This document shows, piece after piece, positions 301 to 19,500 of a DNA stretch of 59,050 bases. This DNA is from Chitinivibrionales bacterium (lineage in GTDB: Bacteria > Fibrobacterota > Chitinivibrionia > Chitinivibrionales > WJKA01), in assembly GCA_014728215.1 (NCBI GenBank), contig WJLZ01000170.1, positions 1-59,050 on the forward strand, written 5' to 3'. The translations under genes were made by a program, and so were the position numbers. Position 1 is the first letter of the stretch; the number at the start of each line of letters is the position of its first letter. The notes under the pieces were generated by a model. That model had not been told where the DNA came from. It saw only the letters and a list, made by a program, of their open reading frames with translations, and ran no database searches.

Positions 301-310
301 TTGTCGACAA
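301..310. promoter_or_regulatory. Candidate GntR/FadR-type operator palindrome
   Basis: TTGTCGACAA is a perfect 10-bp palindrome lying 20 bp upstream of the best ATG of the FadR-type regulator. FCD-type GntR proteins commonly bind short palindromes of the TTGT..ACAA kind next to their own genes, so autoregulation of this operon is a fair inference. A related half site (TTGTCGA at 19844-19850) lies in the rhamnosidase/aldehyde dehydrogenase intergenic region. Confidence 0.45.
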
Positions 311-330
311 TCGACTATCTTATTGAGCAT

Positions 331-1002
331 ATGCATCTTCCGGACCTCAAAATCGACACCAGCTTATCCGAGGCGGTATACCGGGCGATTCGCAAAGAGA
401 TCGCATCGGGGCGCCTGAAAGCAGGACAGAAAATCACCGAATCGGAGATATCTCTGGCAATGGGGATCAGCCGGGCGCCGGTTCGTGAAGCATTCAAGCG
501 GCTGGCAATGGACCATCTGGTGAATTTGATCCCCCGAAGCGGCTGTTATGTGGCTGATCTGGATGAAAAGGAAATTGAAGAGATCTTTGAGATCCGTAAA
601 CGTCTGGAGTGCATGGCCCTCGAATATGCCTTTGCAAATTTCTCTGCTCACCGGCTCCGGGACCTTCGAAACCGGTTTGAGAGTTGCAAAACGATGGCGA
701 GCAGGGAGGCTGTCGAAAAGGAGATTAAGCTCGACGGATACCTTCACGACCTCATCGCTATAAAATCCGGCTGTGATAATCTCAAGGAGATGCTCAAGGC
801 GCTCTGGTCCCGCATCGAAATAATCCGCCTCCGAGAAGCGGAGCGGGGTTATGTGCCGGTCGATGCCGCCAAAGAGCATATCGCATTGCTCGATTCGCTC
901 ATTGACGGCGATAAAGACAGAGCGGTTGATTTACTGGCCCGGCATATCGAAAATTCGAAAAAAACGGTTATCAGTCATTATTATTGTCAAAAACAGGAAT
1001 AG
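331..1002 (+). CDS. GntR-family transcriptional regulator, FadR/FCD subfamily
   Basis: This is a DNA-binding regulator with an N-terminal winged helix (about residues 8-70; the recognition-helix region contains ISRAPVREAFKRL) and an all-helical C-terminal FCD ligand domain. The FCD domain keeps the acid/histidine pattern that usually holds a metal and an organic acid (D/H in LDGYLHDL, H in AKEHIALLDSL, H in LARHIENS). FCD regulators typically sense sugar acids, lactate or other carboxylates. I chose ATG 331; the in-frame TTG at 301 would place the start inside a palindromic operator. It heads the catabolic operon that follows and is its likely local regulator; the effector is unknown. Confidence 0.88.
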   Translation: MHLPDLKIDTSLSEAVYRAIRKEIASGRLKAGQKITESEISLAMGISRAPVREAFKRLAMDHLVNLIPRSGCYVADLDEKEIEEIFEIRKRLECMALEYAFANFSAHRLRDLRNRFESCKTMASREAVEKEIKLDGYLHDLIAIKSGCDNLKEMLKALWSRIEIIRLREAERGYVPVDAAKEHIALLDSLIDGDKDRAVDLLARHIENSKKTVISHYYCQKQE

Positions 1003-1043
1003 ATCGCAAATGGAAACGATACATCAGGAAGGAAACCGCTGCT

Positions 1044-1757
1044 ATGCAATTTCCCGAGTTTGAAAATAAAGTTGTCCTTATCACCGGCGCCGCCGGCGGT
1101 ATCGGCGCTGTCCTGTCGGATAAGTTTGCCGAAAACAACGCCCTGGTTTATGGCGCCGATATCAGAGAGAGCGATCGAAAATGTTTTATTCAGGGTGATG
1201 TTTCAGACCCGGATTTCGCCCCCGCACTTGTAAAGCGGATAATCGATGAACAGGGTCGGATTGATATCCTTATCAATAATGCGGGTATCTGCCCCCGGAC
1301 CCCTTTTCTGGAAATAAAAATCGATGAATGGACAAAAGTGCTCAATATCAATCTGACTTCCATGTTTCTTTTAAGTCAGGCATGTCTCAAAGCGATGATC
1401 GAAAAAGGGTCCGGATGTATTGTCAGTCTTGCTTCCCTTGCCGGGCAGGTAGGCGGTATAGCGGTCGGCGCCCACTACAGCGCCACAAAGGCCGCAATCG
1501 AGTGCATGACCAAAACCCTCGCCCGTAACGGCGCTCCCCATAATATCAGGGCAAATGCCGTCGCCCCTGGAATTATCGACACCGAAATAACCCGCCGGGC
1601 AACACCCGAACAACTGGAGACTTTCAAAAAAACAATTCCCCTGGGAAGGCTTGGAGACGCCGAAGAAGTTGCCGGACCGGTCCTGTTTCTGGCGTCGAAC
1701 CTTGCATCCTATGTCACGGGATTTACGGTTGATATTAACGGCGGGCTGAAGATGTAA
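1044..1757 (+). CDS. Short-chain dehydrogenase/reductase (SDR), first of two
   Basis: This is a 237-residue classical SDR, an NAD(P)-dependent oxidoreductase. The glycine-rich TGAAGGIG cofactor motif, the NNAG motif and the catalytic S...YSATK triad are all present, as is the C-terminal PG motif (VAPGIIDTEI). ATG 1044 follows an AGGAAGGAAA ribosome site. In deoxysugar pathways of the oxidative, non-phosphorylating type, SDRs oxidise the sugar or the 2-keto-3-deoxy acid. With the lactonase-like gene downstream, one of these roles is plausible. The substrate cannot be fixed from sequence; generic FabG-like assignments remain possible. Confidence 0.85.
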   Translation: MQFPEFENKVVLITGAAGGIGAVLSDKFAENNALVYGADIRESDRKCFIQGDVSDPDFAPALVKRIIDEQGRIDILINNAGICPRTPFLEIKIDEWTKVLNINLTSMFLLSQACLKAMIEKGSGCIVSLASLAGQVGGIAVGAHYSATKAAIECMTKTLARNGAPHNIRANAVAPGIIDTEITRRATPEQLETFKKTIPLGRLGDAEEVAGPVLFLASNLASYVTGFTVDINGGLKM

Positions 1758-1937
1758 GATGAAGTGGAAGAGATATGTGACAACGACCTGCCCCGAGGAG
1801 CTTTCGGGAGAGAAACAAGAATATATGAAGCTGAAACTGATGATGAAAAAAAGAGGCAAAAGATCACCGGCAAGATCATGATAAATGAGTAAAAACCTGT
1901 ACCCTGAACCCTGATTACCAAAGAAAGGAGAGGACCG

Positions 1938-2768
1938 ATGAATATTGTTCGAAAGCCTGTTGTGGACCGTTTTAAAGACAAGGTTGCTATCGTTACCGGA
2001 GGATCTTCCGGAATAGGCCGGTCTATTGCAGAAGAATTATGCAAAGAAGGCGCAAAGGTTACGATTACCGGAATAAGCGAGGCCGGAATTACCACCGAAA
2101 AGGAAATGAAAGAACAGGGCTGGGATGTTCTTTTTGTCCGTGGTGATATGGCTGATGATGATTTCCGGGCCGGCATTGTCGAGAAGACACTGGAGAAGTA
2201 TGGAAAGATCAATTATCTCGTGAACAATGCGTTTTCCTTTGTTGCCAAGGGTGAAGACGCTACCGTTGATGATTTCCTTCGAAGCTACCATACCGGGCCG
2301 ATTGCTTATGCACGAATGATCCAGTTGTGTATCGAACCGATGAAAAAGGAAGGCGGCGGCGCAGTGGTCAACATGTCGAGTATTTCGGCCCATATCGCCC
2401 AGGTCAACCGATGGACGTATAATGGTTCCAAAGGCGCGGTGAACCAGATGACCAAGTGTCAGGCACTGGATCTGGCCAGATACAGGATCCGTGTCAACAG
2501 TGTCGATCCCGGCTGGGTCTGGACCCGTGAAGTCGATAAGGCGGCACAACTTGACGGCGGTGGACGGGACAAATGGGAGCCGGTGTGGGGTAGTTACCAT
2601 ATGCTCCGACGGACCGCCGAACCGGTCGAGTGCGCCGGACCAACCCTGTTCCTTCTCAGCGACGACGCTTCCTTTGTAACCGGCGAGCATCTCATGGTCG
2701 ACGCCGGCTATTGCTCGATGGGACCTGAGGGGATCGGTGAAACAACGGTGAATGCCGGAAGCTGGTAG
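1938..2768 (+). CDS. Short-chain dehydrogenase/reductase (SDR), second of two
   Basis: This is a 276-residue SDR preceded by a strong AAAGGAGAGG site. It has the TGGSSGIG cofactor motif, NNAF in place of the common NNAG, the catalytic Ser (NMSSIS) and a YNGSK active-site pair. The C-terminus is longer than in minimal SDRs. It differs enough from the preceding SDR to act at another step, for example sugar to lactone versus keto-deoxy-acid oxidation. The 180-bp gap before it shows no coding signal. Same operon and strand; the substrate is inferred only from neighbours. Confidence 0.85.
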   Translation: MNIVRKPVVDRFKDKVAIVTGGSSGIGRSIAEELCKEGAKVTITGISEAGITTEKEMKEQGWDVLFVRGDMADDDFRAGIVEKTLEKYGKINYLVNNAFSFVAKGEDATVDDFLRSYHTGPIAYARMIQLCIEPMKKEGGGAVVNMSSISAHIAQVNRWTYNGSKGAVNQMTKCQALDLARYRIRVNSVDPGWVWTREVDKAAQLDGGGRDKWEPVWGSYHMLRRTAEPVECAGPTLFLLSDDASFVTGEHLMVDAGYCSMGPEGIGETTVNAGSW

Positions 2769-2925
2769 GATGGGTTTCTTGCGGGACACACGGAGAAACG
2801 CGCAAAAAAAATATATACATGTAAGAAACCGGATTTTACTCCACGTTGTCAGGTTTGTGAAAATCCGTCGAATTTATGACGTTCCCGTTCTATTTTTTTT
2901 TGGAATTTAACTCCGGAGGTTTTAT

Positions 2926-3780
2926 ATGGTAAATTTTCCTGTTGTCGACGGTCATCTGCATGTGTGGGATATCGATCGATGGGTTTATCCCTGGCTCGAT
3001 GATGTTCCTGTTTTGAAGAAGACTCATTTGCTGAAAGATTATAACGAAGCAACAGGGCCGGTGAATGTTGAAAAAATGGTGTTTGTTCAGTGTGAGATCG
3101 AGACCTCAAAGTATAAGGAAGAGGTTGCCTGGATCACCGAACTGGCGCAGAATGAAGATGATCGCATTAAAGGCATTGTATCCTGGTGTCCACTGGAAAA
3201 GGGTGACGGGGCCCGTCCGGAACTCGAAGAACTTGCGCAGAATACGCTTGTTAAAGGTATACGACGGATTATCCAGTTCGAGCCCGACATGGAATTCTGT
3301 CTCAAGCCCGATTTTATCAAAGGAGTCACTATGCTCAAGGAGTATAATCTCACCTTTGATATCTGTATCGATTACCGTCACACAAAAGTTGCAACGCAGT
3401 TTGTGGATAAGTGTCCCGATGTTCCCATGGTACTCGATCATATCGGGAAACCGGGCATCGCCAAAGGACTTCTGGACCCCTGGCGTGGAGAAATCAAGGA
3501 ACTGGCAAAACGACCCAATGTCTGGTGCAAGACCTCATCGCTTGCTACCGAGGCCGATCATGAAAACTGGAGTATCGATGATATCCGTCCTTATGCCGAT
3601 GCTGTTTTCGATGCTTTCGGGATCGAACGCTGCTTTTTCGCCGGCGACTGGCCTGTCTCAGGAATGGCGGCAACCTATCCTCGGTGTGTCGAAACACTGG
3701 AAGAATTGATAAAAGGCGCATCACAGGATGAACTCAAGGCACTGTTCCACGATAATTGCGAGCGCTTTTATAAGGTATAA
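2926..3780 (+). CDS. Amidohydrolase-2 family TIM-barrel hydrolase, sugar-lactonase-like
   Basis: This 284-residue member of the COG3618 type of metal-dependent hydrolases starts with the metal-binding HxH motif (DGHLHVWD, residues ~6-13). It has a central DHIGKPG motif and the C-terminal GDWP motif with the catalytic Asp. Characterised members hydrolyse L-fucono- or L-rhamnono-lactones, and others act on 4-sulfomuconolactone or 2-pyrone-dicarboxylate. Placement after two SDRs favours a lactonase producing an aldonic acid. The start follows CTCCGGAGG. The protein is full length for the family with no visible defect. Confidence 0.8.
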   Translation: MVNFPVVDGHLHVWDIDRWVYPWLDDVPVLKKTHLLKDYNEATGPVNVEKMVFVQCEIETSKYKEEVAWITELAQNEDDRIKGIVSWCPLEKGDGARPELEELAQNTLVKGIRRIIQFEPDMEFCLKPDFIKGVTMLKEYNLTFDICIDYRHTKVATQFVDKCPDVPMVLDHIGKPGIAKGLLDPWRGEIKELAKRPNVWCKTSSLATEADHENWSIDDIRPYADAVFDAFGIERCFFAGDWPVSGMAATYPRCVETLEELIKGASQDELKALFHDNCERFYKV

Positions 3781-3797
3781 TCAAAAAAAAACCAGAG

Positions 3798-4769
3798 ATG
3801 TCAAAATATAAAGTTCTCGTCACCGACCACGTGTTTGACCGTTTCGATACGGAACGGGAGGTCCTCGCCCGTGTCGACGCCGAATTGATCGTGCACCAGT
3901 TTCGTACTATCGATGAATTATTGCCTCATGTGGGAGATATCCATGGTCTGCTCAACTGTTATCTCGGGCCGATCGACAATAATGTTTTTGACGCCGCGCC
4001 AAATCTTAAGATTGTCTCCAGGTACGGTATCGGTGTGGATACGATCAATATCACGGATGCTGCGCGGCATGGGGTGATTGTCTCGAACATTCCCGACCAC
4101 GCGATCAATGAAGTTGCCGATCATGCCGTTGCGCTGTTCCTGAATCTTGCACGCAAGATAAGCACGGCCGACCGTCGGGTGAAAAACGGAGTGTGGTCGC
4201 TTTCATACGTAAAACCGCTTCATGCAATAAGAGGTATGACCGCGGGTTTTATCGGGTTCGGCAAAATCGGCAGAGCCGCGGCAGAACGTCTTAAAGCATT
4301 CGGTGTGCGGGTTGTTTTTCATACGCCCACATGGAAAGGCCTGGTTGACGGTTTCTCTCAGGTCGCTTTCGATGAACTTCTTGCTGCAAGTGATGCTGTT
4401 TTTATACAGTGTCCATCAACCGAACAAACATATCATCTGATAAATCGCGCGACTATAGAAAAAATGAAGAAAAAACCGCTGCTGATCAATACGGCACGAG
4501 GTGCGATTGTCGACGCCGACGCCCTGGTGTGGGGACTTTCAACAGGGAACGTGTCGGGAGCTGCATGCGATGTTCTGGAGGATATCGATTCGGTGGTAAC
4601 AACCGACCATCCTCTCAAAAAAGCCGAAAATGTGATATTGACTCCCCACAGCGCATTTTATTCCGAAGAATCGGTGGAAGATTTGAAATATCGCGCGGCT
4701 GAGAATGTCGCGAGGGTCCTGGTAGGAAAGGAACCGTTGTTTAGAGTTGGGGGTAATGGACGAGGATAA
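3798..4769 (+). CDS. D-isomer-specific 2-hydroxyacid dehydrogenase
   Basis: This is a 323-residue NAD-dependent dehydrogenase that interconverts 2-hydroxy and 2-keto acids. The Rossmann motif is GFGKIGRAAAERL (~150-162). The catalytic triad is visible as Arg in INTARG, an acidic residue in DVLEDID and His in LTPHSAF. The family includes phosphoglycerate, glycerate/hydroxypyruvate and lactate dehydrogenases; sequence alone does not pick one. It begins 17 bp after the lactonase-like gene and precedes the LarA-like gene, so a pairing of epimerase and stereospecific dehydrogenase on the same hydroxyacid is attractive but inferred. Confidence 0.85.
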   Translation: MSKYKVLVTDHVFDRFDTEREVLARVDAELIVHQFRTIDELLPHVGDIHGLLNCYLGPIDNNVFDAAPNLKIVSRYGIGVDTINITDAARHGVIVSNIPDHAINEVADHAVALFLNLARKISTADRRVKNGVWSLSYVKPLHAIRGMTAGFIGFGKIGRAAAERLKAFGVRVVFHTPTWKGLVDGFSQVAFDELLAASDAVFIQCPSTEQTYHLINRATIEKMKKKPLLINTARGAIVDADALVWGLSTGNVSGAACDVLEDIDSVVTTDHPLKKAENVILTPHSAFYSEESVEDLKYRAAENVARVLVGKEPLFRVGGNGRG

Positions 4770-4854
4770 TGGAATTGTATTTGCAGGTTCGTCAAGGTGG
4801 CGTCCACTGCAGCAGCCCGACTGTGAAGGAGGGCTTGATTAAAGTGATGGGGTG

Positions 4855-4920
4855 ACGGGAAACAGTAAGATAACGATTGCATTTTTCCCGCCGTTCCACT
4901 GCTCCATTACCCATTCTTCC
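4855..4920. repeat. Intergenic repeat of the TGGAGTA/TCCATTAC family
   Basis: The 160-bp gap inside the operon contains a GGGGTGACGGG arm and a CCCGCCGTTCCA arm, followed by a CTCCATTACCCATTC run. The same kind of motif appears at 24538-24600, 53403-53456 and 57905-57975. This copy is the most diverged, so membership is tentative. It ends just before the ribosome site of the LarA-like gene. Confidence 0.35.
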
Positions 4921-4930
4921 GGAGTTTTAT

Positions 4931-6205
4931 ATGCTTTACTTTGCTGAAGGTTCACATAATTCGGTTATTTCGCTGGAGAAAGCATCGGGGTATCTCGATT
5001 CGATGCTGGAGTCGTTGGGTGATTTGAGGCGGGTGCTGATTTTGCCGCCCGATTATACGCGGCTTTACTCGTGGGCGGGAGAGCTGACTGTTCTGCTCTA
5101 TGAAAAGCTCAAGGACCGCAGCCATATCGAGATCATGCCTACCCTGGGGACGCATCTTCCCATGACCGATTCCGAATTAAACGCCATGTTCCCCGGGATT
5201 CCCCATGATGTTTTCCGGGCGCACGACTGGCGGAACGATATCATACGGCTGGGTGACGTTCCGGCGGAATTTATCCGTGAGGTTTCCGAGGGGAAGCTAA
5301 AATTCCCGCTGGCTTGTGAGATTAATCGATCCCTTGTCGAGGGGAGATGGGACAGGATTATTTCGGTGGGCCAGCTTGTTCCTCACGAGCTGGCGGGTAT
5401 TGCCAATTTCAGCAAAAATATCTGTATCGGTGCGGGGGGCGAAGATACCATTTCCAAAACCCATTATGTTGCTGCCGTGTATGGACTGGAGCGTCTGATG
5501 GGGCGTGTTGAAAATCCCATGCGGAAAATCCTCCGCTACATGGAACAGCATCATCTCAAAGGACTCCCGATCTCGTATGTCATGACGGTCCGGGGGCAGG
5601 ACAATATGGGCACAGTGGTTACCCGGGGACTCTTTGGCGGTGATGATGAAGAATGCTATCGTATCGGTGCGGAGCTGTGCAGGGATATATCGATCACCTT
5701 CCTGGATAAACCCTTTCAAAAGGTTGTTGTCTACATGGACCCTGAAGAGTTCAAGACCACCTGGGTGGGCAATAAGTCGATATTTCGTACCCGTATGATT
5801 ATCGACGACGGCGGGGAGATCGTCATTATGGCCCCGGGGGTCAAACAGTTCGGCGAAGATACCGCTAATGACCGGTTTATAAGGAAATTCGGGTATCACG
5901 ATACCGATTATATGGTGAACCTGGTGAATACCGTTGGTGAAGCGTCATCCAATATTACCGCGGTGTCCCACATTATTATCAGTTCTCCCGAAAATCGTTT
6001 TACGGTCACCTGGTGTCCGGGGTTTTTGACAAAGGAAGAGGTCGAGTCGGTGAATTTCAACTATGCCGATTGCTCTACAATGATGAAAAGATATGATCCC
6101 GGAAAATTGGCTCCGGGAGTCAATATACTTCCTGATGGTGAAGAGATATTTTTTGTGCCCCGCCCTGCGCTCGGGTTGTGGGCCGCAAAGGACCGATTTA
6201 AATAG
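4931..6205 (+). CDS. LarA/DUF2088-family 2-hydroxyacid racemase or epimerase
   Basis: This is a 424-residue homologue of lactate racemase LarA, which uses a nickel-pincer nucleotide cofactor. It starts at ATG 4931 after TTCCGGAG and matches the usual family length. Family landmarks are present: PDYTR near residue 40, GTHLPM, AHDWRND, then PHELAG...SKNI and a later KTHY. These correspond to the catalytic histidines and to the Lys/His residues that hold the cofactor. Related enzymes racemise or epimerise lactate, malate, hydroxyglutarate and gluconate-type acids. The cofactor genes larB, larC and larE are not in this window. The substrate is likely the hydroxyacid of the neighbouring dehydrogenase. 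Confidence 0.82.
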   Translation: MLYFAEGSHNSVISLEKASGYLDSMLESLGDLRRVLILPPDYTRLYSWAGELTVLLYEKLKDRSHIEIMPTLGTHLPMTDSELNAMFPGIPHDVFRAHDWRNDIIRLGDVPAEFIREVSEGKLKFPLACEINRSLVEGRWDRIISVGQLVPHELAGIANFSKNICIGAGGEDTISKTHYVAAVYGLERLMGRVENPMRKILRYMEQHHLKGLPISYVMTVRGQDNMGTVVTRGLFGGDDEECYRIGAELCRDISITFLDKPFQKVVVYMDPEEFKTTWVGNKSIFRTRMIIDDGGEIVIMAPGVKQFGEDTANDRFIRKFGYHDTDYMVNLVNTVGEASSNITAVSHIIISSPENRFTVTWCPGFLTKEEVESVNFNYADCSTMMKRYDPGKLAPGVNILPDGEEIFFVPRPALGLWAAKDRFK

Positions 6206-6238
6206 AACGCATAAACCTGCTGCACAAAGGACCCTGTT

Positions 6239-6697
6239 ATGATTTCTAAAAAGGTCGACCATATTGCGCTAAGTGTTGCCGATATCGACCGGTCGCTTGG
6301 ATTGTACCGTGATATCCTGGGCGCCGAGGTAATCCGCATCCTTGAATGCGACAGCCGATCGCTTCTGGGAAAAGTCGTGGGCATGCCCGGAGCGGTTGCC
6401 CGGATTTGTCATCTGGCATTTGGTGATACCATGATCGAGCTGTTCGAATATTCGAATCCCGAGGGCATACCCATACCGCCCGAACGGAAACAGGCGGATA
6501 AGGGATGGATTCACCTGGGATTGACCTCCACCGATGTACGGGCCGATTATGCAGCGTTACGGGATAAGGGTATCGAATTTATCAGCGAACCGGTGGAATT
6601 CCGTCCTGATGTCTGGATTGTTTATTTCAAGGGCCCCGATGGTGAAGTGTGTGAGTTACGCCAGACGCCGCCGGGTGATTCCGACATTGCTGAATGA
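6239..6697 (+). CDS. VOC-family (glyoxalase/epimerase-like) protein
   Basis: This is a 152-residue vicinal-oxygen-chelate protein with two beta-alpha-beta-beta-beta halves (VDHIALSVADIDRSLGLYRD at the start; IHLGLTSTDV and FKGPDGEVCELRQ in the second half). Metal-ligand candidates are His in DHIAL, Glu in MIELFEY, His in WIHLGL and Glu in VCELRQ. The family includes methylmalonyl-CoA epimerase, glyoxalase I and ring-cleaving dioxygenases. Its position between the LarA-like and E1 genes suggests a role in the same pathway, but no reaction can be assigned. Confidence 0.8.
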   Translation: MISKKVDHIALSVADIDRSLGLYRDILGAEVIRILECDSRSLLGKVVGMPGAVARICHLAFGDTMIELFEYSNPEGIPIPPERKQADKGWIHLGLTSTDVRADYAALRDKGIEFISEPVEFRPDVWIVYFKGPDGEVCELRQTPPGDSDIAE

Positions 6698-6733
6698 GAA
6701 TATATTATCTGCAAATATTAAGGAGCACAGAAA

Positions 6734-8905
6734 ATGAAAAAGAAACTGAAACTCGATTTTGACTGGTACGAATGGAAAACAACCGACCAGGAGCTTGCAA
6801 AGCTCGATAGCCGGCTTGCCGGGCGTCTCTTATTTGAGGTATTTATCATCAATGAATTCGAACATGCCCTGTTGCGGCTTAAAAACGATGATTGCGTATG
6901 GGGGCCGGTCCATTCGAGTGTCGGACAGGAGGCCATAGCGGCCGGTGTGACCGCAGCAATAAAACCTTCGGACAAAGCATTCTCAACTCATCGTGCCCAT
7001 CATCATTTCCTCTCAAAGGTTCTTCAGTACGAATTACCGGGAAACTGGGATCCCCGCACTGCAGAGCTTCCGGAGAAAGGGCACGAAGGCGTTCTTCGGA
7101 GTATGGCTGAGATTATGGGGCTTTCCATGGGCTACTGCGGCGGCCGCGGAGGATCGATGCACTTGCGGTATGCCGAATCGGGTTTTTTAGGCTCCAATGC
7201 GATTGTCGGTGGCGGCATACCACTGGCCACCGGTGCTGCGTTTACCGAAAAAATCAACAAGACCGGCAATGTCGTGGTCTGCTATTTTGGTGACGGCGCC
7301 ATTAATCAGGGAGCGTTTCATGAAGCCGCCAATATGGCCGCAATATGGGACCTTCCGGTGATATTTGTCTGCGAAAACAACGAATATGCTGTCGCTACAT
7401 GCAAAGATGAAGCCTGCGCGGTGTGCGATCTTTCGGTAAGAGCGTCCTCCTATGGCATGGATGGCCATATTGTTGACGGCAGCGATCCGGTTGCTGTTTA
7501 CGATGCGGTAGATTATGCGGCAAAAAGTATGCGTACCGGAGCCGGGCCCTGTCTTATCGAAGCGAAATGTTTCCGAAGGTATCATCATGCAGGAGATCAG
7601 CCCGGAAGCGCTTACAACTATCGGGAGCGTGATGAAGAGATGCTTCATTCGGAAAAAGAACCCATGCTGTTGTTCCCCAAAAAGCTTATCGATGCCGGCG
7701 TCCTTGCGACTGAACAGATCGAACGTATACAAAATACTGCATTTTCTGCAGTTGCCCGTGCTGTTGATTCCTTGACGAATGGCGGTGAACCCAGAACCGT
7801 GAAAGCAGAACTTTTGCCGGACCCATCCCGTCTTACCGAAGGAATTCGGAGTACCGGTGATGAGTTTTCGGGGATATCATTTTCCCAAAAGTCCGATTTT
7901 GCGGAATGGGAAAAGATGAAATACAGTGATGCCATTGCATCGGTGACAAGGCGCTGGATCGAAACCGACCCGAACTCCTTTGTCATGGGCGAGGAAGTCG
8001 CCAATTTCGGCGGTGGCGCCTACCAGGCAACGAAGGGGCTTCCTGCAGAATATCCCGATAGAATCAGAAACACTCCCATTTCCGAGGCTGGGTTTGTCGG
8101 TCTCGGTCTGGGCGCGGCCATGACCGGGATGCGTCCGATTGTCGAGATCATGTTTTGCGATTTTTCTCTGGTTGCCGCCGATCAGTTGTTCAATCAGATC
8201 GGGAAAGCCCGCCATATGTACGGCAATACCACCGATATTCCACTCGTCGTCCGAACAAGAGTCTGTACCGGGCTGGGCTACGGCGGGCAGCATTCCATGA
8301 ACGCGGTCGGACTCTATGCGCTCTTTCCCGGATGGCGTATCATATCCCCCGGCAATTCGTTCGATTATATCGGCCTGTTCAATTCGGCCATGCACTCGCT
8401 CGACCCGGTGCTTATCCTCGAACATCAGGCGCTCTATACCAATAAATTTCCTGTTCCCAAAGGCAATGTCGATTATTTCATCCCCCTGGGAAAAGCGAAT
8501 GTGGTATCCGGGGGCGACCAATGCACCATTTTGACCTATGGTAATCTCGTGGGACGCTGTGAGGCTATGCTTTCGAAACTGGCGGATGACGGTATCTCTG
8601 CGGAGCTGATCGATCTTCGGACCCTCGATTACCCGGGAATCGATTATGAGACAATAGGGGAGAGCGTGAAGAAAACCGGGGCGGTGATGATCTGCGAGGA
8701 GGCAAAAAAGAGTCACGCGGTAGGTCCCACGATCGCACATGAAATCACGGAGCGCTATTTTGATTATCTCGACTGTCCCATAGCAAGTATCACCTCGGTT
8801 GATGTACCGCCACCGGTGTCACGGGTCCTCGAACAATCGGCATTGATCAGCGATCAGCATATCTATGAAACAGCAGTCGCTGTGGCCACCAGGAAATGGA
8901 GATAG
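6734..8905 (+). CDS. Fused alpha-beta TPP-dependent 2-oxoacid/acetoin-type dehydrogenase E1
   Basis: This 723-residue protein joins the two E1 subunits of pyruvate, branched-chain or acetoin dehydrogenases. The alpha part (~1-360) carries the thiamine diphosphate signature GDGAINQG ... ENNEYAVAT. The beta part (~390-723) carries the SEAGFVGLG catalytic-Glu region and the transketolase C-terminal domain. A strong AAGGAG site lies upstream. No E2 (lipoyl acyltransferase) or E3 is encoded nearby, so it either borrows these from elsewhere or performs a non-oxidative cleavage. As last gene of the operon it could process the terminal keto or diketo intermediate; that is inference. Confidence 0.85.
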   Translation: MKKKLKLDFDWYEWKTTDQELAKLDSRLAGRLLFEVFIINEFEHALLRLKNDDCVWGPVHSSVGQEAIAAGVTAAIKPSDKAFSTHRAHHHFLSKVLQYELPGNWDPRTAELPEKGHEGVLRSMAEIMGLSMGYCGGRGGSMHLRYAESGFLGSNAIVGGGIPLATGAAFTEKINKTGNVVVCYFGDGAINQGAFHEAANMAAIWDLPVIFVCENNEYAVATCKDEACAVCDLSVRASSYGMDGHIVDGSDPVAVYDAVDYAAKSMRTGAGPCLIEAKCFRRYHHAGDQPGSAYNYRERDEEMLHSEKEPMLLFPKKLIDAGVLATEQIERIQNTAFSAVARAVDSLTNGGEPRTVKAELLPDPSRLTEGIRSTGDEFSGISFSQKSDFAEWEKMKYSDAIASVTRRWIETDPNSFVMGEEVANFGGGAYQATKGLPAEYPDRIRNTPISEAGFVGLGLGAAMTGMRPIVEIMFCDFSLVAADQLFNQIGKARHMYGNTTDIPLVVRTRVCTGLGYGGQHSMNAVGLYALFPGWRIISPGNSFDYIGLFNSAMHSLDPVLILEHQALYTNKFPVPKGNVDYFIPLGKANVVSGGDQCTILTYGNLVGRCEAMLSKLADDGISAELIDLRTLDYPGIDYETIGESVKKTGAVMICEEAKKSHAVGPTIAHEITERYFDYLDCPIASITSVDVPPPVSRVLEQSALISDQHIYETAVAVATRKWR

Positions 8906-9090: not shown

Positions 9091-9894
9091 TTATTTCTCC
9101 TGAAGCTCTATTTCGGTATTCTCTTTCCAGGTAACCGTGGAGCCTTCAACCGTGGCCACCGGGGTCTGGAAATCGATTGAAGCTTTCTTGATCACCTTGT
9201 TGGCAATATCGATAACCGCGGTTCCGGTTCCCTTGCCGCCGATAGGAATGTATTGAGTGAGCGATTTGGCTTCCTCATCCTTTTCGATAGTTGCATATTT
9301 GAATTGCCACGAGATAAGCACCGTATCCTTTTTAGGAGAGATTTCTTCCACTTTATATAGACGGTAGACTTCACAGATGTTAGTGCCCTGTGCGGTTTTT
9401 ATGGGAAGGGTAACCGAGCGTTCCCAGGTGAAACCTTTCTTTACCGCCTGCTTTGGCATTTCGGGCAGAAGTTTTGAAAATTGCATGTACACGTTCCATT
9501 CCGGAATGCCTTCAGAGGAAAAATCGGGTACCGTATCGATCTCAGGGGCACCCTCAACAAGCGCAAGATCCATCGTTGATTCCGAAAGGTTTTCCTTTAT
9601 CTTATTCTGAACTTCTTCATCATAGAGTTCCGATTTCACGGAGACATCATTGACAGCAAAGGACAGCCGTTCTTTGTTGTCGGAGAGGGTTCCGTTCAGA
9701 TCGCAGGTGATCTCGGTCTCCTTGGGCGTCTTTTCCTTGTTTTTCTCAAAGATGCATTTGGATTGGTAGAAGATCGTATAGGTCCAGTTTTCCTTCCCGC
9801 TGTAATCGAGTTTCAACTCAAATTTATCCTTTTTGGCATATACCGGCAAAAGTATACCGAGAATAAGCACGGAAAGAAAGATTGTGTTGCGCAT
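9091..9894 (-). CDS. Exported protein of unknown function
   Basis: This 267-residue protein has a clear signal peptide (hydrophobic residues 4-18, cleavage near VYA-KKD) and a beta-rich mature part with few landmarks. It contains DLNGTLSDNKERLSFAVNDV and a C-terminal stretch on maintaining an invariant 'GKGTGTAVIDIANKVIKKA' pattern, typical of periplasmic or surface proteins that test quantities such as 'threshold versus reference' in DUF6263-like families; that match is only an impression. It is transcribed towards the E1 gene and diverges from the alcohol dehydrogenase. No role in the sugar pathway can be shown. Confidence 0.7.
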   Translation of the reverse strand: MRNTIFLSVLILGILLPVYAKKDKFELKLDYSGKENWTYTIFYQSKCIFEKNKEKTPKETEITCDLNGTLSDNKERLSFAVNDVSVKSELYDEEVQNKIKENLSESTMDLALVEGAPEIDTVPDFSSEGIPEWNVYMQFSKLLPEMPKQAVKKGFTWERSVTLPIKTAQGTNICEVYRLYKVEEISPKKDTVLISWQFKYATIEKDEEAKSLTQYIPIGGKGTGTAVIDIANKVIKKASIDFQTPVATVEGSTVTWKENTEIELQEK

Positions 9895-10113: not shown

Positions 10114-11280
10114 ATGAATATTGCAGAAAAACCGGAAGTAATGAAACAGCCGTCCTCAGTTGAATTCGGATATAAATCCTGTTCCCATATTCCCCGATAT
10201 CTGGCAGAAAGCACCCGGATCTTTATCGTGTGTGATCCCGCACTGGTGCATTCGGCTGCTAAAATCGGTAAAAGCCTGGCGTCGGAAACAGAGTGCACAA
10301 TCTATTCCCATGTGGAACCGGAACCGAAAATATCCACCTTTGAAAAAATCCTCCTGGAAGCAAAGACCTACCGACCGGATGCTGTTGTGGGTATCGGCGG
10401 CGGCTCCACGATCGATTTGGCCAAGCTCCTTGCGGTTCTCTGCAACAGTGACAAATCCTTTTCTGATATCGTTGGCACCGATAAAATTTACGAGAAACGG
10501 ACAATCCGCCTTATGGCAGTCCCTACGACCTCGGGAACAGGCAGTGAAGTATCTCCTATTGCCATTCTTACCGATTCGGATCAGCAGCTCAAAATCGGTG
10601 CGGTCAGCGATGAGCTTATTCCCGATGTCGCTGTAGTGGATCCGGAATTGATGCTTTCCATGCCCCCGTCGGTGACCGCAGAAACCGGCATGGATGCCAT
10701 GACCCATTGTATCGAGGCCTACACGAACCGGTTCAGCACTTCGAAGACCGATGTTGTTGCTTTGGAAGGGATAACCCTTATCGGAGGAAATTTACTGAAA
10801 GCGTATCGGAACGGCAATGATCTTGCAGCGCGGACCGCAGTGGCCAGAGGCGCGCTGTGCGGCGGCCTGTGCCTGGGCTCGGTCAATACCGCTGCTGTTC
10901 ATGCGCTTGCTTACCCTCTTGGCGGCGAATTCTGTGTTTCCCACGGAAAGGCCAACTCGATGTTGCTTCCTTATATCATGGAATACAATCTTTCCGAGTG
11001 TGTCGAAAAGTACGCAAACATCGGAAAGGTTCTGGGGTGCAAAGAAAAAAATAACCAAAAGCGGGCGCAGCAGGCCATTGTGATGATTCGCAATCTTGCA
11101 CAAGCCTGCGGCATACCAACCGGCCTCAAAGAACTTGGTGTTCCCCAAACAGCACTCGAGCACATGGCCACATCAGCCTTGAAAGTAACGCGGCTCATTC
11201 TCAATAACCCGCGTTCACTTGAATATGATGACGTTCTTGATATTTACAGTAAAGCCTATTGCTGCACCCGGGGCGCCTGA
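10114..11280 (+). CDS. Iron-containing alcohol dehydrogenase
   Basis: This is a 388-residue group III (Fe-ADH) alcohol dehydrogenase that reduces aldehydes or oxidises alcohols with NAD(P). The nucleotide motif is GIGGGSTIDLAK (~98-109), and PTTSGTGSEVSP follows. Metal ligands are the Asp in the GMDAMTH block (with its His) and the His residues in AVHALAYPLGG and VSHGKAN. Lactaldehyde/1,2-propanediol oxidoreductase of rhamnose and fucose metabolism belongs to this family, so this is one candidate role. Its stop codon overlaps the next start by one base (TGATG), tying it translationally to the unknown cassette downstream. Confidence 0.87.
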   Translation: MNIAEKPEVMKQPSSVEFGYKSCSHIPRYLAESTRIFIVCDPALVHSAAKIGKSLASETECTIYSHVEPEPKISTFEKILLEAKTYRPDAVVGIGGGSTIDLAKLLAVLCNSDKSFSDIVGTDKIYEKRTIRLMAVPTTSGTGSEVSPIAILTDSDQQLKIGAVSDELIPDVAVVDPELMLSMPPSVTAETGMDAMTHCIEAYTNRFSTSKTDVVALEGITLIGGNLLKAYRNGNDLAARTAVARGALCGGLCLGSVNTAAVHALAYPLGGEFCVSHGKANSMLLPYIMEYNLSECVEKYANIGKVLGCKEKNNQKRAQQAIVMIRNLAQACGIPTGLKELGVPQTALEHMATSALKVTRLILNNPRSLEYDDVLDIYSKAYCCTRGA

Positions 11281-11654
11281 TGAGACTTCTTCACACAAAA
11301 CTACCCGAATTCAAACATAAAATTACACAGGCGGCACTCGAACAGGGCAAAAAATGCACTATCAGCGGGCTCGAAAATCTTCGGTGCGGTAAAGTGCAAT
11401 CCCTTCGGACAGGAAGAATCGAATCCGCCATTGAGGAGATCGCCCGGGAATCGGCAACCGGTAATGTTGAAGTGATCGTTATGCCCCGTGTGCCGGAAAC
11501 AATGCACACGGTAATTGTAAAGGGAGTCGATAAAAAAGGCGCCGATACACGGGCAATTATGGAAGTTGTCAATATTATTCATCCCACCGAAGAATACGAG
11601 CTTCGCAATTGCACCTCGGTCGATGATCGCCGGCCGCCTCTGGGAAAGCACTGA
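11280..11654 (+). CDS. Unrecognised small protein A of five-gene cassette
   Basis: This is a 124-residue protein starting at ATG 11280, coupled to the alcohol dehydrogenase stop. I do not recognise a family. It has a helical N-terminus, a predicted alpha/beta core with the segments VEVIVMPRVPETMHTVIVKG and IMEVVNIIHPTEE, and two to three cysteines that are not arranged as a metal site. There is no signal peptide, so it is probably cytosolic. It may be a small subunit of a complex with the next protein, judging from the 9-bp spacing and the size ratio; this is inference. Confidence 0.6.
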   Translation: MRLLHTKLPEFKHKITQAALEQGKKCTISGLENLRCGKVQSLRTGRIESAIEEIARESATGNVEVIVMPRVPETMHTVIVKGVDKKGADTRAIMEVVNIIHPTEEYELRNCTSVDDRRPPLGKH

Positions 11655-11663
11655 ATAAGCATC

Positions 11664-12695
11664 ATGGCCCGATTGACCTACAGGTTTATTCCCGCCGGAA
11701 AAAAGACCGGCCAGCTGGTGCCCCTCGGCATCGCGTTGGTCGATATCAGAACCATTACCTCATGTGGATGCTCCGTTGAAGATGCGATTCGTGGGGTTGC
11801 CTGCGATGTAAATGCTCCGGTAGCGATTAACATTTTCGATATGGACGCCGTGACGACCACCAGTGACGGGATCGTTATTGATGGCGCTATTGTCTGCATG
11901 GGTGCGGGGGATAACGGTAATGTCAATGAAGAATTCGGTATCCTTTCCATGGCCCGGGTCGATGTTACCGATGATCTTATCAAAGAAGAGCCTCACCTTG
12001 CGCAAGTAAAACGGTATTATCCAGGCAAACCGCTTTACAGAGGGCCCGATCCCGCCAAAAAACTGATCCCCGTGCATAATGTGGTTATGACCGGACGGGC
12101 CGCAAATAACAATTCGGCCACCGAAATGATGGATATCGTTACCATGGAAGAAATCCTGTTTCCCATACTGGGTCAGATTCAGATCATGAAAGACAAACCG
12201 GTGGTGGTGGGTATGTCCGGTGAGTATATTTCGGTTGGCGTCGGTATGACTGTGGCTGAAGTCTACGGAAGAATCTTTCCTACCCGTCAGTTCAGAGCAG
12301 GAGATACTGCCCACGCAGCGGAGCGGTATGCTAAAAATCTGAAGAGTCATATTCCCTGCATTGTTGCACCCAAGCGGGAATTGGCACGCTCCATTATACG
12401 GGCCTTTGAGTGTGGAATGGTCCCCGGCAGAGAGCTTGGATGTGCACCTGCCTGCATTGCAGTCGCCCAGGCATATCACCATGATATCGATATCGACAAT
12501 ATAACCGAAAAGGCAGAAAAAGAGCTTGCGAGTATCGGTATGGATATCCGGGGTTTGTCGCGATGGGAAAAACCGTTGCCAAAGGAACAGATAATCGGGC
12601 AGGCCGACCGGATAATACCCGGTGTGGTTAATCCGGTGGAAATCGAGGCCCATGAAATTGCAGAAACACGCTCTGTTGATATCGTTTCCGGTTGA
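11664..12695 (+). CDS. Unrecognised protein B of five-gene cassette (343 aa)
   Basis: This is the largest member of the cassette. No known family was recognised. Notable features are a Cys-rich turn TSCGCSVEDAIRG (~34-46), a glycine/asparagine-rich segment MGAGDNGNVNEEFG, an invariant-looking TGRAANNNSATEMMD block, GMSGEYISVGVGMT and a late ELGCAPACIAVAQAYHHD block with two Cys and two His. The paired Cys and His could bind a metal or cluster. It has no signal or membrane segment. Position 9 bp after protein A suggests one functional unit. Catalytic role is unknown. Confidence 0.6.
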   Translation: MARLTYRFIPAGKKTGQLVPLGIALVDIRTITSCGCSVEDAIRGVACDVNAPVAINIFDMDAVTTTSDGIVIDGAIVCMGAGDNGNVNEEFGILSMARVDVTDDLIKEEPHLAQVKRYYPGKPLYRGPDPAKKLIPVHNVVMTGRAANNNSATEMMDIVTMEEILFPILGQIQIMKDKPVVVGMSGEYISVGVGMTVAEVYGRIFPTRQFRAGDTAHAAERYAKNLKSHIPCIVAPKRELARSIIRAFECGMVPGRELGCAPACIAVAQAYHHDIDIDNITEKAEKELASIGMDIRGLSRWEKPLPKEQIIGQADRIIPGVVNPVEIEAHEIAETRSVDIVSG

Positions 12696-12739
12696 ATCGC
12701 TGCTGCTTAACTTTTGTAAGTATCCATTCTGTTTAAAAA

Positions 12740-13126
12740 ATGAAATCAAAAATAATCTGTTACGCCGATAAATGTATGCTGAAAATTGAGGGGCTTTCGG
12801 TAAAGGGGCTCAGACCTGTGGAGCTCGAAAAAAGCCTCTCTCAAAAGCTCAATACGGTTGTCCGGGTAATCGGTGTGACCGGCGATAGGCTGGATATGGA
12901 TATTTACGGCATGAAAGAGAGTGATATCGAGCGCAACAGCGAAGGAATTGTCGTTGCTGTTGCTGCTGCCGAAGGTATTACTATAGCCGATGTAAAGAAA
13001 ATAACGTTGAACGACGGGTGTATCAATATAAATATCAACGAAGTTGCGCCTGTTAACGTACCGGGATGTGCCGGTCAGCGATGGAGATCCTGTGATACGA
13101 AAAGCCGCGATCATTCCGACCGGTGA
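12740..13126 (+). CDS. Unrecognised small protein C of five-gene cassette
   Basis: This is a 128-residue cytosolic protein with alternating strands and helices (KIEGLSVKGLRPVELEKSL near the start, then VVRVIGVTGDRLDMDIYG and EGIVVAVAAAEGITIADV). It is small, alpha/beta, and similar in size to protein A, but no clear sequence relation is visible by eye. The end of the frame overlaps the start of protein D by about 35 bp, and the last ~12 residues are composition-poor, so the functional part may end near residue 115. Function is unknown. Confidence 0.55.
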   Translation: MKSKIICYADKCMLKIEGLSVKGLRPVELEKSLSQKLNTVVRVIGVTGDRLDMDIYGMKESDIERNSEGIVVAVAAAEGITIADVKKITLNDGCINININEVAPVNVPGCAGQRWRSCDTKSRDHSDR

Positions 13127-13622
13127 TGAGATTGTCGAAGGCGTGGTGGTCGACACGAACAGCCCTGCAATCCGGGATTTGATTCTCCATACTTTTCCTG
13201 ATTGTGCAATTGCACTCTGTTCTCCATGCTCCGATATCGCAGAGGTTATTGCTGCTGCAATAGAGCGGCAGATCGAAGAACGCTGCGATTGTATTGTTCT
13301 GATCGGCGGGTGTGGTGAAGGCCATTGCAGGTGCCCGGGATTGGGCATCGATGTCACTCCCCGGGCAATAGAGAACGTGCTGAAAGAATATTGGACCCGG
13401 GACATCTATGGTTCCAACGGCCACCGGTGGGCCCGGATTATGGCTGGTCGAGCAGGGAACAGTCTGGTGGTGAATGTCCCGGGACCTTATGTTGAAGCCT
13501 GCGCTGCAGCAGAGGCGCTGCTTGCTGTTTTGAAACAGGGAGATTGGGAGTGCCGGTCTATCGCTGAGGCATGCGCCGAAGCGGTTATCACACAGTATCC
13601 GCCAGGGAGTATATCGTCATGA
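13092..13622 (+). CDS. MoCF/CinA-like molybdopterin-binding-fold protein D of cassette
   Basis: This is a 176-residue protein. GTG 13092 with an upstream GGAG is the best start; a TTG at 13044 is possible but deep inside gene C. The N-terminus IPTGDEIVEGVVVDTNSP matches the opening strand-loop of the molybdopterin-binding MoCF domain, as in MoeA, MogA and CinA. A following LIGGCGEGHCRCPG is a glycine-rich loop with three Cys, which is unusual for the family. It could bind molybdopterin or a nucleotide, or be a re-purposed fold. Its stop overlaps the start of protein E (ATGA), giving translational coupling. Confidence 0.65.
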   Translation: MIRKAAIIPTGDEIVEGVVVDTNSPAIRDLILHTFPDCAIALCSPCSDIAEVIAAAIERQIEERCDCIVLIGGCGEGHCRCPGLGIDVTPRAIENVLKEYWTRDIYGSNGHRWARIMAGRAGNSLVVNVPGPYVEACAAAEALLAVLKQGDWECRSIAEACAEAVITQYPPGSISS

Positions 13623-14212
13623 ATCCGCTTTTCGGATTGCTCATTTCAGGACATACTCTCGATAGCTATCCCTTTGCTGCGGGTCTTCTGGGACCTGTTT
13701 CTCATCAAAGAGAACTCAACGAAATTTCAGAGATTTTTAACGACATCGAGATTGGTGATAGTGTCGATCAGCTTGAAATCGATATGAAATGTGCTCAGTT
13801 TGTCAGGGAAAAGTGTTCTTCAGCGGTGTACGCCTGTGCATTGAGTGTCCATATACCCGGTACAGTGCATTCATGCGGGGGCATAATCGGCAGTCCGTGT
13901 GCCCGGCCATCATCTGCCTCGCTGCGGCCATGGAGTGAAAATATCGGTCATGGGCTCAGTCTTGCCGCTGTTCCCGGACAGGGAGGTGTTGTTGTTTGCG
14001 GAAACCCCCTGTTTGCTGAAGCATGTATTCATTTTGCTGGAGCCGAAAAAGGTGGAGCGGAATTTATCGACAGGGTTCTTGGATATGCAGGAGAAAAAAA
14101 GATAATCCATGCTCTTGCGGTGCATGACGGCACCGGTTGTGGCATGCGCGGTGGCGTGGGACTGCTGTGCGATGGGCGCAAAGAAAGGCTGCTTATCCCT
14201 GGTTTAACCTGA
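13619..14212 (+). CDS. Unrecognised Cys-rich protein E of five-gene cassette
   Basis: This 197-residue cytosolic protein starts at ATG 13619 inside the ATGA overlap, with AGGGAG upstream. No family was recognised. Visible motifs are ISGHTLDSYPFAAGLLGPVS at the start, VHIPGTVHSCGGIIGSPCARPSS in the middle, and HDGTGCGMRGGVGLLCDG near the end. Cysteines and glycines cluster in two loops, which suggests a metal- or cofactor-binding site. It closes the cassette; the next gene follows after 57 bp with its own ribosome site and is of a different type. Confidence 0.6.
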   Translation: MNPLFGLLISGHTLDSYPFAAGLLGPVSHQRELNEISEIFNDIEIGDSVDQLEIDMKCAQFVREKCSSAVYACALSVHIPGTVHSCGGIIGSPCARPSSASLRPWSENIGHGLSLAAVPGQGGVVVCGNPLFAEACIHFAGAEKGGAEFIDRVLGYAGEKKIIHALAVHDGTGCGMRGGVGLLCDGRKERLLIPGLT

Positions 14213-16591: not shown

Positions 16592-19500
16592 TTATAGTTT
16601 TACAGAAAATGCATGTTCCCCCGACCCTACTTTGGCAATTTTGTTTTCTTCCACCCCCGGCAACACGACCTTAGCCCAAACATTCCCCGGCACGGTCACA
16701 TCCAGATCAAACCGGCCATCTTTTATTTCCCAGCTCACTGCAAGTTCTCCATAAATGGACTCATACCTTCCCTTAGCCCATGTCAGTCCACCGCCGGGGC
16801 GGGGATGAATGATGACCGATTTATATCCCGGCGTATCAGGATCGGGATTGATGCCGAGTATCACCCGGTATATCCATTCTCCGATTGCACCGAAAGCGAA
16901 ATGGTTGAATGAATTCATCTCGTGTGGATTGATCGTGCCGTCGGCAAAGATACCGTCCCACCGTTCCCAGATCGTGGTGGCGCCCTGATCGATCATGTGG
17001 CCCCAGGAGGGGATGTCACGATTCATGAGGAGTTTGTAGGCCAGATCGGTCTGGTTTGCTTTTGCCAGTTCGATCATCATGCGGTGGGTCGGCTGTAGGC
17101 CGGTTGAGGGATGAAAATTATAGTATTGGACCCGCTCGACAAGGTGGGAAATAATTGTTGAGCGCATCTCGTGGGGGACAAGATCGAAATGAAGCGCGAG
17201 GGTGTAGACCGTCTGGTTGTGTCCTTCAATTTTACCTTCATTGTCGAGAAACTCACGGCAAAATGCGGCTTTGATATCAGTGGCAAGGCGGGAATATGTC
17301 CCGGCGTCTTCATCGTGGCCGACGGCCTGAGCCATCTTAGCCAGTATTTCGGCGCCATGCGCAAAGAAAGCGGTTGCAAATACCTGTTTGGGAGTACCGA
17401 GCTTTTGCCAGGGATAGTTTTCCGGTTTATAGGTTTGACTGCTCAGCCAGTCACCATAGTCGACCCCGCGACAGTTCCGCCAGATCAGATCGGGATTATG
17501 GGACCGGATAAACTCGATCCATTTTTTTGATGACTCATAATGCTCCCGGATGATCCGCCGGTCGCCATAATTTTCATATACCCGCCAGGGGGTAATGTGG
17601 CTGCCGTCAGCCCATCCCGGAGCGCCGGAGAATCGTTTGTATGAGATAAGATGATTAGGGGAAAAATCGGAAAAACGACCATCATCGGTTTGAGCATCGC
17701 GGCAATCTCCCGCCCACTTGGTGTAAAACCGCGCCATATTCATGTTGAAACAGGCGGTTTGGGAGAACACCGATGCATCACCGCCCCATCCCAGGCGCTC
17801 ATCCCGTTGCGGACAGTCGGTGGGAGTGCTGTGCATGTTATCTCGCTGAGTCCATTGAATCGCAGTCATCAGTTTGTTAAGCAGCGGTTCGGAACATTCG
17901 AATGTTCCTGTTTCGGGCGCCGCCGAATGAAAGGCGCATCCGGTAATGAAATCAGGACCCGGTTTTGATGACAACCCTGTTATTTCCACATAGCGGAAAC
18001 CATGATAGGTAAAATGAGGCTGGAGTGTTTCGGGGCCCTTGCCGCCGAGTATAAAGGTATCGGTTTGTGCTGCCGTACGAAGGTTGGCCATGGCTACCAT
18101 GCCATTCTTGTCAACAACTTCCGCATGGCGAAGGGTGATTGTGTCTCCCGGTTTACCGGAAACGTTTATCCGGCACCATCCCACCATATTCTGTCCCATG
18201 TCGGCTACGTACACGCCGGATTTGGGTTCGGTGATTGAAATGGGGGAGAGTTCCCGGGTAATTTTTATCGGCTCGTTGAACTGACTGACAAGAGGGACGG
18301 TAATGGAGTCGTCGATTTCAGCGTTGTTCCATTGGGGGGTACCGGCTGCCTGCTTGTTATCCTTCGCGTTTTTTGTTCCTTGTTCTCTATAAGGACCGGG
18401 ATGAACGGGTGACTGCTGATGGAAATCAATTTCCTGTGGCGCATCGTACACCTCGCCGTCAAAAATGCACGAGCTGCGGATGGGGCCGTCGAGAGTGCCC
18501 TGCCATGAGCTGTCCGTGTGAACAACTCCCCGGGTGCCGTCGCTGTATTCGATCTCCAGTTGAGCCATAAATTGAGGGCGATTGCCATAGAACCGTCTCC
18601 CGGGAGTCAGCCCGAGCCTTCCGGCATACCATCCTTCGCCACAGGTTGCGACAATCAGATTTTCTTTCCGACGGAGCAGTGGGGTAATATCGTATGTCTG
18701 ATATTGCACCCTTTTTCCATAATCGGTCCACTCGGGCGCCAGGATATGCTCTCCCACACGGGTTCCGTTGATATGCATTTCGTAGACCCCCAGGCAGGTT
18801 GTATAGAGGCGGGCCGCAGCAAGTTGCTTTTCGATCGGGAATGTCTTTTTGAGGACTGTTGCGGGCGCGGGCGAACCGGGGTTACCTTTTTTAGACTCGG
18901 TAACACCGTTGGTGCAATATAAGGGCGACCACCCCTTACATGAGCAGGAATCGGATGCCGTTACTTTCTTACCCAAGGCAATGTTTTCATCGCCGCCATA
19001 GATTTCGACCTCGGTCAGAGCAAATCCATGAATATTGGCTTCCCACCGCCCAAGGAGTTTCGCCCTGATTCGGATATACCGCGCCGTACAGGGGTCAAAA
19101 TGATATTCCTTCGGAGTTTTTCCGGGGTTGGGAATGTCCTCTGAGGTCTTATCTACAATGGTCGTGTGTTCGGTGAAATTTTCTGTGTTGGATATGTCAA
19201 TTTTCAGTTTGAGGGGGAAAAGAAACCCCTCCTTGCCCAACCATTCATAGCATGTTGCAGGGAAGAGCCGGATTGAGCTGAATTGACGGGAGGTACCGAG
19301 ATCGATAGTTATCCATTTTTCTTCTTCGGGATCGATAGTAAATTCGGAGCAGTATCCGTAGCAGGGCGCTTCATAGCCATCGATTGGGTAGGGGAGTCCG
19401 ATCCAGTGCGCCGACCAGTCATCACGGTCAAGAAGGCCCATCTCCCAGGTTGCGGGTTCGCTGAAATCTGATGGTGTTCCATTGGCGTCCCAGAATCTCA

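Follow-up and report, generated by a model that had tools for sequence, protein, structure and literature searches.

A five-gene cassette associated with LarA-superfamily genes: probably an undescribed system for hydroxy-acid breakdown

Clostridia contain multi-gene systems of odd proteins, encoded in the operons of glycine reductase and D-proline reductase. Four-carbon acid-sugar pathways with a DUF1537 kinase and PdxA2 are also known, and these operate without the genes described below. Many groups of the LarA superfamily have no known physiological role. A LarA-superfamily partner points to a 2-hydroxy acid as substrate (Sci Rep 2020, PMC7583248; J Biol Chem 2024, PMC11770544).

We analysed a window of 59,050 nucleotides (the whole stretch of DNA under study) from a Chitinivibrionales bacterium, in which five genes, here named A to E, form a cassette. 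Like the glycine and D-proline reductase operons, the cassette is a multi-gene module of unfamiliar proteins that occurs in anaerobic Bacillota; however, none of the window's cassette proteins hits a Pfam or NCBIfam model for those enzymes, and a Pfam search with the homologues of B and E gave no hit either. Relatives of the four-carbon pathway genes, namely a PdxA-type dehydrogenase and a DUF1537 gene of the D-threonate-kinase type, sit at two loci (L029, tested, and L030, by inspection) together with TRAP genes, a LarA homologue and A–E, although the kinase reaches 232 bits, under the model cut-off of 450. The LarA superfamily provides the genomic partner of the cassette: group 22 (NF052515) at 14 loci and a putative hexonate epimerase (NF052594) in the window. 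No homologue of LarA, LarB, LarC or LarE exists among A–E, none of which matched a Lar_N, LarB, LarC or LarE model of Pfam or NCBIfam, and the cassette is an additional protein set, absent from the LarA literature examined. Searches on the module, and on LarA clusters with TRAP, DUF1537 or gene neighbourhoods, covered few subscription journals and supplements and found no description, in line with the original prediction, made from this DNA alone, that no described pathway has this set.

According to the ORF calls, six genes of the window lie head to tail on the + strand (Table 1). The local transcription unit opens with the gene of an iron-containing alcohol dehydrogenase (Fe-ADH), and the cassette follows downstream at 11280–14212. 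The junctions measure, in order, -1 bp (Fe-ADH/A), +9 (A/B), +44 (B/C), -35 (C/D) and -4 (D/E). The protein lengths first proposed (124, 343, 128, 176 and 197 residues) are the same in the ORF calls, and the proposed junction sizes are correct for all except C/D, where the overlap is 35 bp and had been given as 34. The five are taken to be real genes because the longest cassette ORF has 343 codons whereas the longest one obtained from 300 shuffles has 170, and because a second genome of the window's family (G002) has orthologues of all five in unchanged order, where the differences from the window fall mainly on third codon positions, a bias that is weakest in E.

Table 1. Positions of the cassette genes and related features in the window
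Feature	Coordinates	Strand	Remarks
Upstream hydroxy-acid/sugar-acid operon	301..8905	+	ORFs and family scans
LarA homologue, putative nickel-dependent hexonate epimerase	4877..6205	+	NF052594, 561.6 bits (cut-off 500)
Fe-ADH, iron-containing alcohol dehydrogenase	10114..11280	+	388 aa; PF00465 E=1e-43, PF25137 E=1.7e-53
A	11280..11654	+	124 aa; without known family; best conserved among the partners of B
B	11664..12695	+	343 aa; without known family
C	12740..13126	+	128 aa; without known family; single invariant Cys (C110)
D	13092..13622	+	176 aa; GTG start; MoCF fold, diverged MogA/Cnx1G relative
E	13619..14212	+	197 aa; without known family; quickest-evolving of the five

Proteins A, B, C and E matched no Pfam or NCBIfam model, and Pfam scans of each sequence in the alignments of B and E likewise gave no match. 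Profiles of PDB sequences revealed nothing above chance level for these four proteins, the match of C being weak (E=0.07). D matches MoCF_biosynth (PF00994) with E=3.6e-12 and 46.6 bits, compared with a Pfam gathering score of 26.6, and its profile aligns with the Mog structures 3k6a/2f7w across residues 6-171 (E=7e-5). Its nearest solved relatives are MogA/Cnx1G, with which it aligns over almost the full length while retaining the GGxGxG...D and PGP...EA motifs; it differs from them in its genomic linkage, which is with A-C and E as a group of its own, and in falling far below the equivalog cut-off. An assignment of D as MogA itself (molybdopterin adenylyltransferase) was rejected, as NF006932 gives 15.8 bits against that cut-off of 158. 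The expectation that only D has a familiar fold turned out to be right, and instead of each protein falling into a characterised family, A, B, C and E belong to none.

The AlphaFold model of B is confident (pLDDT 88.8, pTM 0.90), and its fold is unmatched in the PDB: Foldseek against the PDB and viral models returned no match at E<=0.001, the best PDB match having E=0.038 and TM 0.17. For A (model pLDDT 83.9), Foldseek gave no fold match in the PDB below E=0.014. The top 50 matches of A are mostly histidine-kinase ATPase domains; the resemblance to a histidine-kinase-like sandwich (GHKL/Bergerat) is weak (E>=0.014, TM<0.45) and was not taken as an assignment, and no DxGxG box was seen in A. 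Ten polar residues of A are invariant in 20 sequences (H5, T6, E32, N33, K38, S41, R43, R46, E64 and E73). In B, 20 polar residues are invariant across 13 sequences, including D59, D68, D83, E109, H111, N148–N150, E154, R203, H217, Y222, K227 and K237. Judging by their conservation, the invariant residues of A and of B look like an active site. The invariants of E include D50, D55 and D170.

Cassette loci were found 21 times, in 17 genomes of two phyla; these counts come from samples in which many genomes are incomplete, and are no census. A lies beside B at all 20 testable loci, and at L031 and L032 two dehydrogenase genes are inserted between them. C is present at 18 of the 21 loci, D at 16 and E at 14; L004 holds A, B and E. 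The order of the genes is largely kept across distant phyla. A plasmid search with B as the query found none. One further candidate, the fragmentary L003 in G061 (E=7e-4, four internal stop codons), was discarded because the phylum profile search did not recover it. A–E are a co-inherited, co-conserved module, which bears out the original prediction of a joint system: the five do travel together, in largely the same order, in distant genomes.

The recurrent partner of this module, overlooked by the original prediction, is a LarA-superfamily epimerase/racemase. At 14 loci a LarA homologue of NCBIfam group 22 (nickel-pincer isomerase) is found inside the cluster, mostly adjoining A–E; the group was assigned with NF052515 at five loci (473–530 bits, cut-off 400) and at the others with a local HMM built from those five. 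Another type of LarA lies between D and E at L092. LarA proximity at 14 of 19 loci has an estimated chance of ~3e-27, a rough figure based on a generous background rate and treating the loci as independent, which is strictly untrue. In a 398-genome sample, group 22 occurs in 10 of 10 cassette genomes compared with 85 of 398 overall (hypergeometric 1.3e-7). The cassette-linked group-22 genes are scattered over several parts of a tree of 42 group-22 proteins, in which they need 6 changes compared with 12 for shuffled labels, and at least 5 of the changes are forced by well-supported branches. Therefore, the link does not go back to one recent transfer, but has been made or kept repeatedly. At five loci (L004, L093, L005, L089 and L095) a LarA homologue is absent from the stretch examined; among these, L089 and L095 are at a contig end or short, and L005 belongs to G002, which has its group-22 gene on another contig. 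This link connects LarA-type nickel-pincer enzymes with four families (A, B, C and E) for which Pfam and NCBIfam have no model.

The LarA homologue of the window, a candidate functional partner, sits in an upstream operon separate from the cassette. The equivalents of the catalytic His, the NPN-binding Lys and the second His align with those of the group-22 homologues, their positions being judged by eye. This operon also encodes a GntR-like regulator, two SDRs, a lactonase-like amidohydrolase, a D-2-hydroxyacid dehydrogenase-like protein, a VOC protein and a TPP-dependent E1 fusion (the GntR, SDR, lactonase and 2-hydroxyacid dehydrogenase names were given by inspection). An opposite-strand gene at 9091–9894 divides it from the unit of Fe-ADH and A–E. 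G002 has a like cluster without the cassette on contig C15 (L075), with a LarA homologue, VOC, two SDRs and GntR; this matching LarA operon and the group-22 gene of G002 both lie on contigs other than that of the cassette. The separate operon, the intervening gene and the arrangement in G002 mean that the LarA–cassette link of the window itself may be due to chance.

The claim that the cassette is coupled to the Fe-ADH does not extend beyond the window's family, as the Fe-ADH gene is missing at 19 of the 21 loci and occurs, in the same position, only in the window and G002. The Fe-ADH is a lineage-specific partner, local to this family. The wider set of neighbours, several of whose roles were assigned by eye from sequence, points to the breakdown of 2-hydroxy acids and sugar acids. 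Most cassette loci have TRAP transporter genes (by inspection). A KduD-type SDR gene follows D at L024, which has a UxaA-type dehydratase too, a KDG-kinase-like gene follows E in G002, and genes like those of 2-oxoacid:ferredoxin oxidoreductases occur at L031, L092 and L094 (by inspection). At L025, L026, L027, L088 and L091 the cluster consists of a transporter, LarA, the cassette and a regulator, with little more. L004 adjoins ketone-body-type genes, not sugar-acid genes.

A–E are probably an undescribed system for hydroxy-acid breakdown. More specifically, we put at about one half the probability that they are a catabolic module for 2-hydroxy acids, mainly sugar acids, which works with a LarA-type C2 epimerase. 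The hydroxy acid would be imported by a TRAP or other transporter, a LarA-superfamily enzyme would invert C2 or otherwise shuffle a hydride there, and the A–E proteins would then carry out the committed conversion; the minimal clusters of transporter, LarA, cassette and regulator suggest that A–E perform this next step. From the neighbours alone, the conversion could be a dehydratase-like one, in which the acid, once corrected at C2, becomes a 2-oxo or 2-keto-3-deoxy acid; such a product is favoured because genes for a KDG-type kinase, KduD and 2-oxoacid:ferredoxin oxidoreductase are found near the cassette at several loci. A and B are taken as the core since they occur without C, D and E at two loci (L093 and L094), and B is the probable main catalytic subunit. 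C, D and E would have accessory roles, as subunits or factors; D would be a MogA-like protein that handles a nucleotide or pterin. In the window's lineage, the Fe-ADH may reduce an aldehyde arising downstream. We infer the physical cooperation of the products, their action on the substrate or product of LarA, and the reaction type. The five LarA-less loci and the ketone-body-type surroundings of L004 speak against a catabolic module of this kind, as does the possibility that the kinase/dehydrogenase route of L029 and L030 is complete without a further step.

Other explanations fit parts of the same evidence. If A–E were unrelated genes, merely adjacent in a compact genome, the lack of mutual homology found among the five would be expected, but the recurrence of one set at 21 loci in distant phyla, largely in one order, makes this scarcely credible. 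The metal- or molybdopterin-dependent enzyme with Cys/Gly-rich loops envisaged in the original prediction appears highly improbable. The MoCF fold of D speaks for it; however, MoCF folds occur also in proteins without molybdenum, such as CinA. The Cys/Gly-rich loops of B, D and E do exist in the window copy, but they are no feature of the families. No column with >=80% Cys occurs in A, D or E, while there is one in C and two in B, where C232 is kept in 11 and C260 in 12 of 13 sequences; in A, D and E the cysteines of the window copies are poorly conserved. Neither a conserved cysteine cluster in B, D or E nor a cluster-binding pattern is present, and given this conservation a metal site built from Cys is unlikely in all three. 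Nor do the neighbourhoods point to a molybdopterin-dependent conversion: a Mo/W enzyme does not recur as a regular partner, the only locus with an AOR-like gene, assigned by eye, being L032.

The main rival to the catabolic module is an accessory system for LarA-type enzymes, which would load their nickel-pincer nucleotide cofactor, modify or repair it, or insert the metal anew. By analogy with MogA, which activates molybdopterin ahead of metal insertion, D might adenylylate or otherwise handle the nucleotide. The MogA-like character of D is consistent with it, and so are the linkage of the cassette to LarA homologues of different kinds, the extra MoaB/MogA-like gene that follows D at L028 and L088, and the presence of LarE and LarB at L090, a few genes off and just past the TRAP genes. 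The sample counts weaken this explanation to the point of being unlikely: 75 of 85 sampled group-22 genomes lack the cassette, so that the enzyme has no general need of it, and L093 has A and B alone with no LarA nearby. It is weakened further, and a replacement of LarC by the cassette is unsupported, because the cassette shows no enrichment where LarC is absent: LarC is lacking in 3 of 10 cassette genomes and in 21 of 78 genomes overall (Fisher p=1). Improbable as a general account, though possible in the window's lineage, is an aldolase-type carbon-carbon lyase: it would split a sugar acid, and the resulting aldehyde would be reduced by the Fe-ADH. Both genomes of the window's family start the unit with the Fe-ADH gene, and the genes that separate A from B at L031 and L032 are of an SDR and a zinc-type alcohol dehydrogenase (by inspection). 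However, the loci do not all share any one dehydrogenase, the clusters at L025-L027, L088 and L091 have none, and the alcohol dehydrogenase could act in another step.

A more tentative reading is that A and B together make up an enzyme of a new class, whose fold is absent from the PDB, and that, aided by the MogA-like nucleotidyl-handling protein, they might convert the product of the nickel-pincer epimerase through undescribed chemistry or an undescribed cofactor. The LarA link makes both the cellular role of the group-22 homologues and the reaction catalysed by A–E testable. The cassette would also provide new genes of anaerobic sugar-acid catabolism to be sought in environmental genomes. 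Homologues of B are rare: they occur in 2 of 168 genomes of the window's phylum, in 10 of 398 genomes of the phylum of a Defluviitaleaceae MAG, and in 6 of 46 genomes of one class of that phylum.

Among the 78 genomes with a LarA homologue of group 22 (NCBIfam NF052515), a recurrent neighbour of the cassette, 21 show no LarC match and no LarE that scores above its cut-off (G175, G187, G189, G217, G230, G233, G256, G260, G269, G272, G295, G303, G333, G336, G358, G361, G393, G435, G465, G536, and G560). Two of the 21, G189 and G358, are on contigs >2 Mb. The cofactor made by LarB, LarC, and LarE may not be used by every member of group 22, or may be obtained from elsewhere.

A LarA homologue outside group 22 is placed between D and E at locus L092. 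Its best-fitting models are malate/lactate racemase, with scores far below their cut-offs. The window also carries an operon in which a hexonate-epimerase-type LarA gene is accompanied by genes for two SDRs, a VOC protein, a lactonase-like amidohydrolase, and a TPP-dependent E1 fusion. In G002, the second genome of the window's family, a cluster resembling this operon, L075, occurs on another contig, without the cassette. Downstream of the cassette, two genes recognized by inspection are possibly a further part of the same sugar metabolism.

Coordinates of the features at the cassette loci
Feature	Location	Position	Remark
Hexonate-epimerase-type LarA operon	window	4877-8905	
Alpha-L-rhamnosidase-like gene, large	window	16592-19774	minus strand
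Aldehyde-dehydrogenase-like gene	window	19994-21448	next after the preceding gene
Second MoaB/MogA-like gene	L028	8062-8568	directly after D
Second MoaB/MogA-like gene	L088	74-568	directly after D
Non-group-22 LarA homologue	L092	11855-13066	

Two cassette loci, L028 and L088, contain a further MoaB/MogA-like gene. In the Defluviitaleaceae locus L004, the cassette comprises only A, B, and E and adjoins thiolase, CoA-transferase, and hydroxybutyrate-dehydrogenase-like genes, a neighbourhood that differs from those of the other loci.
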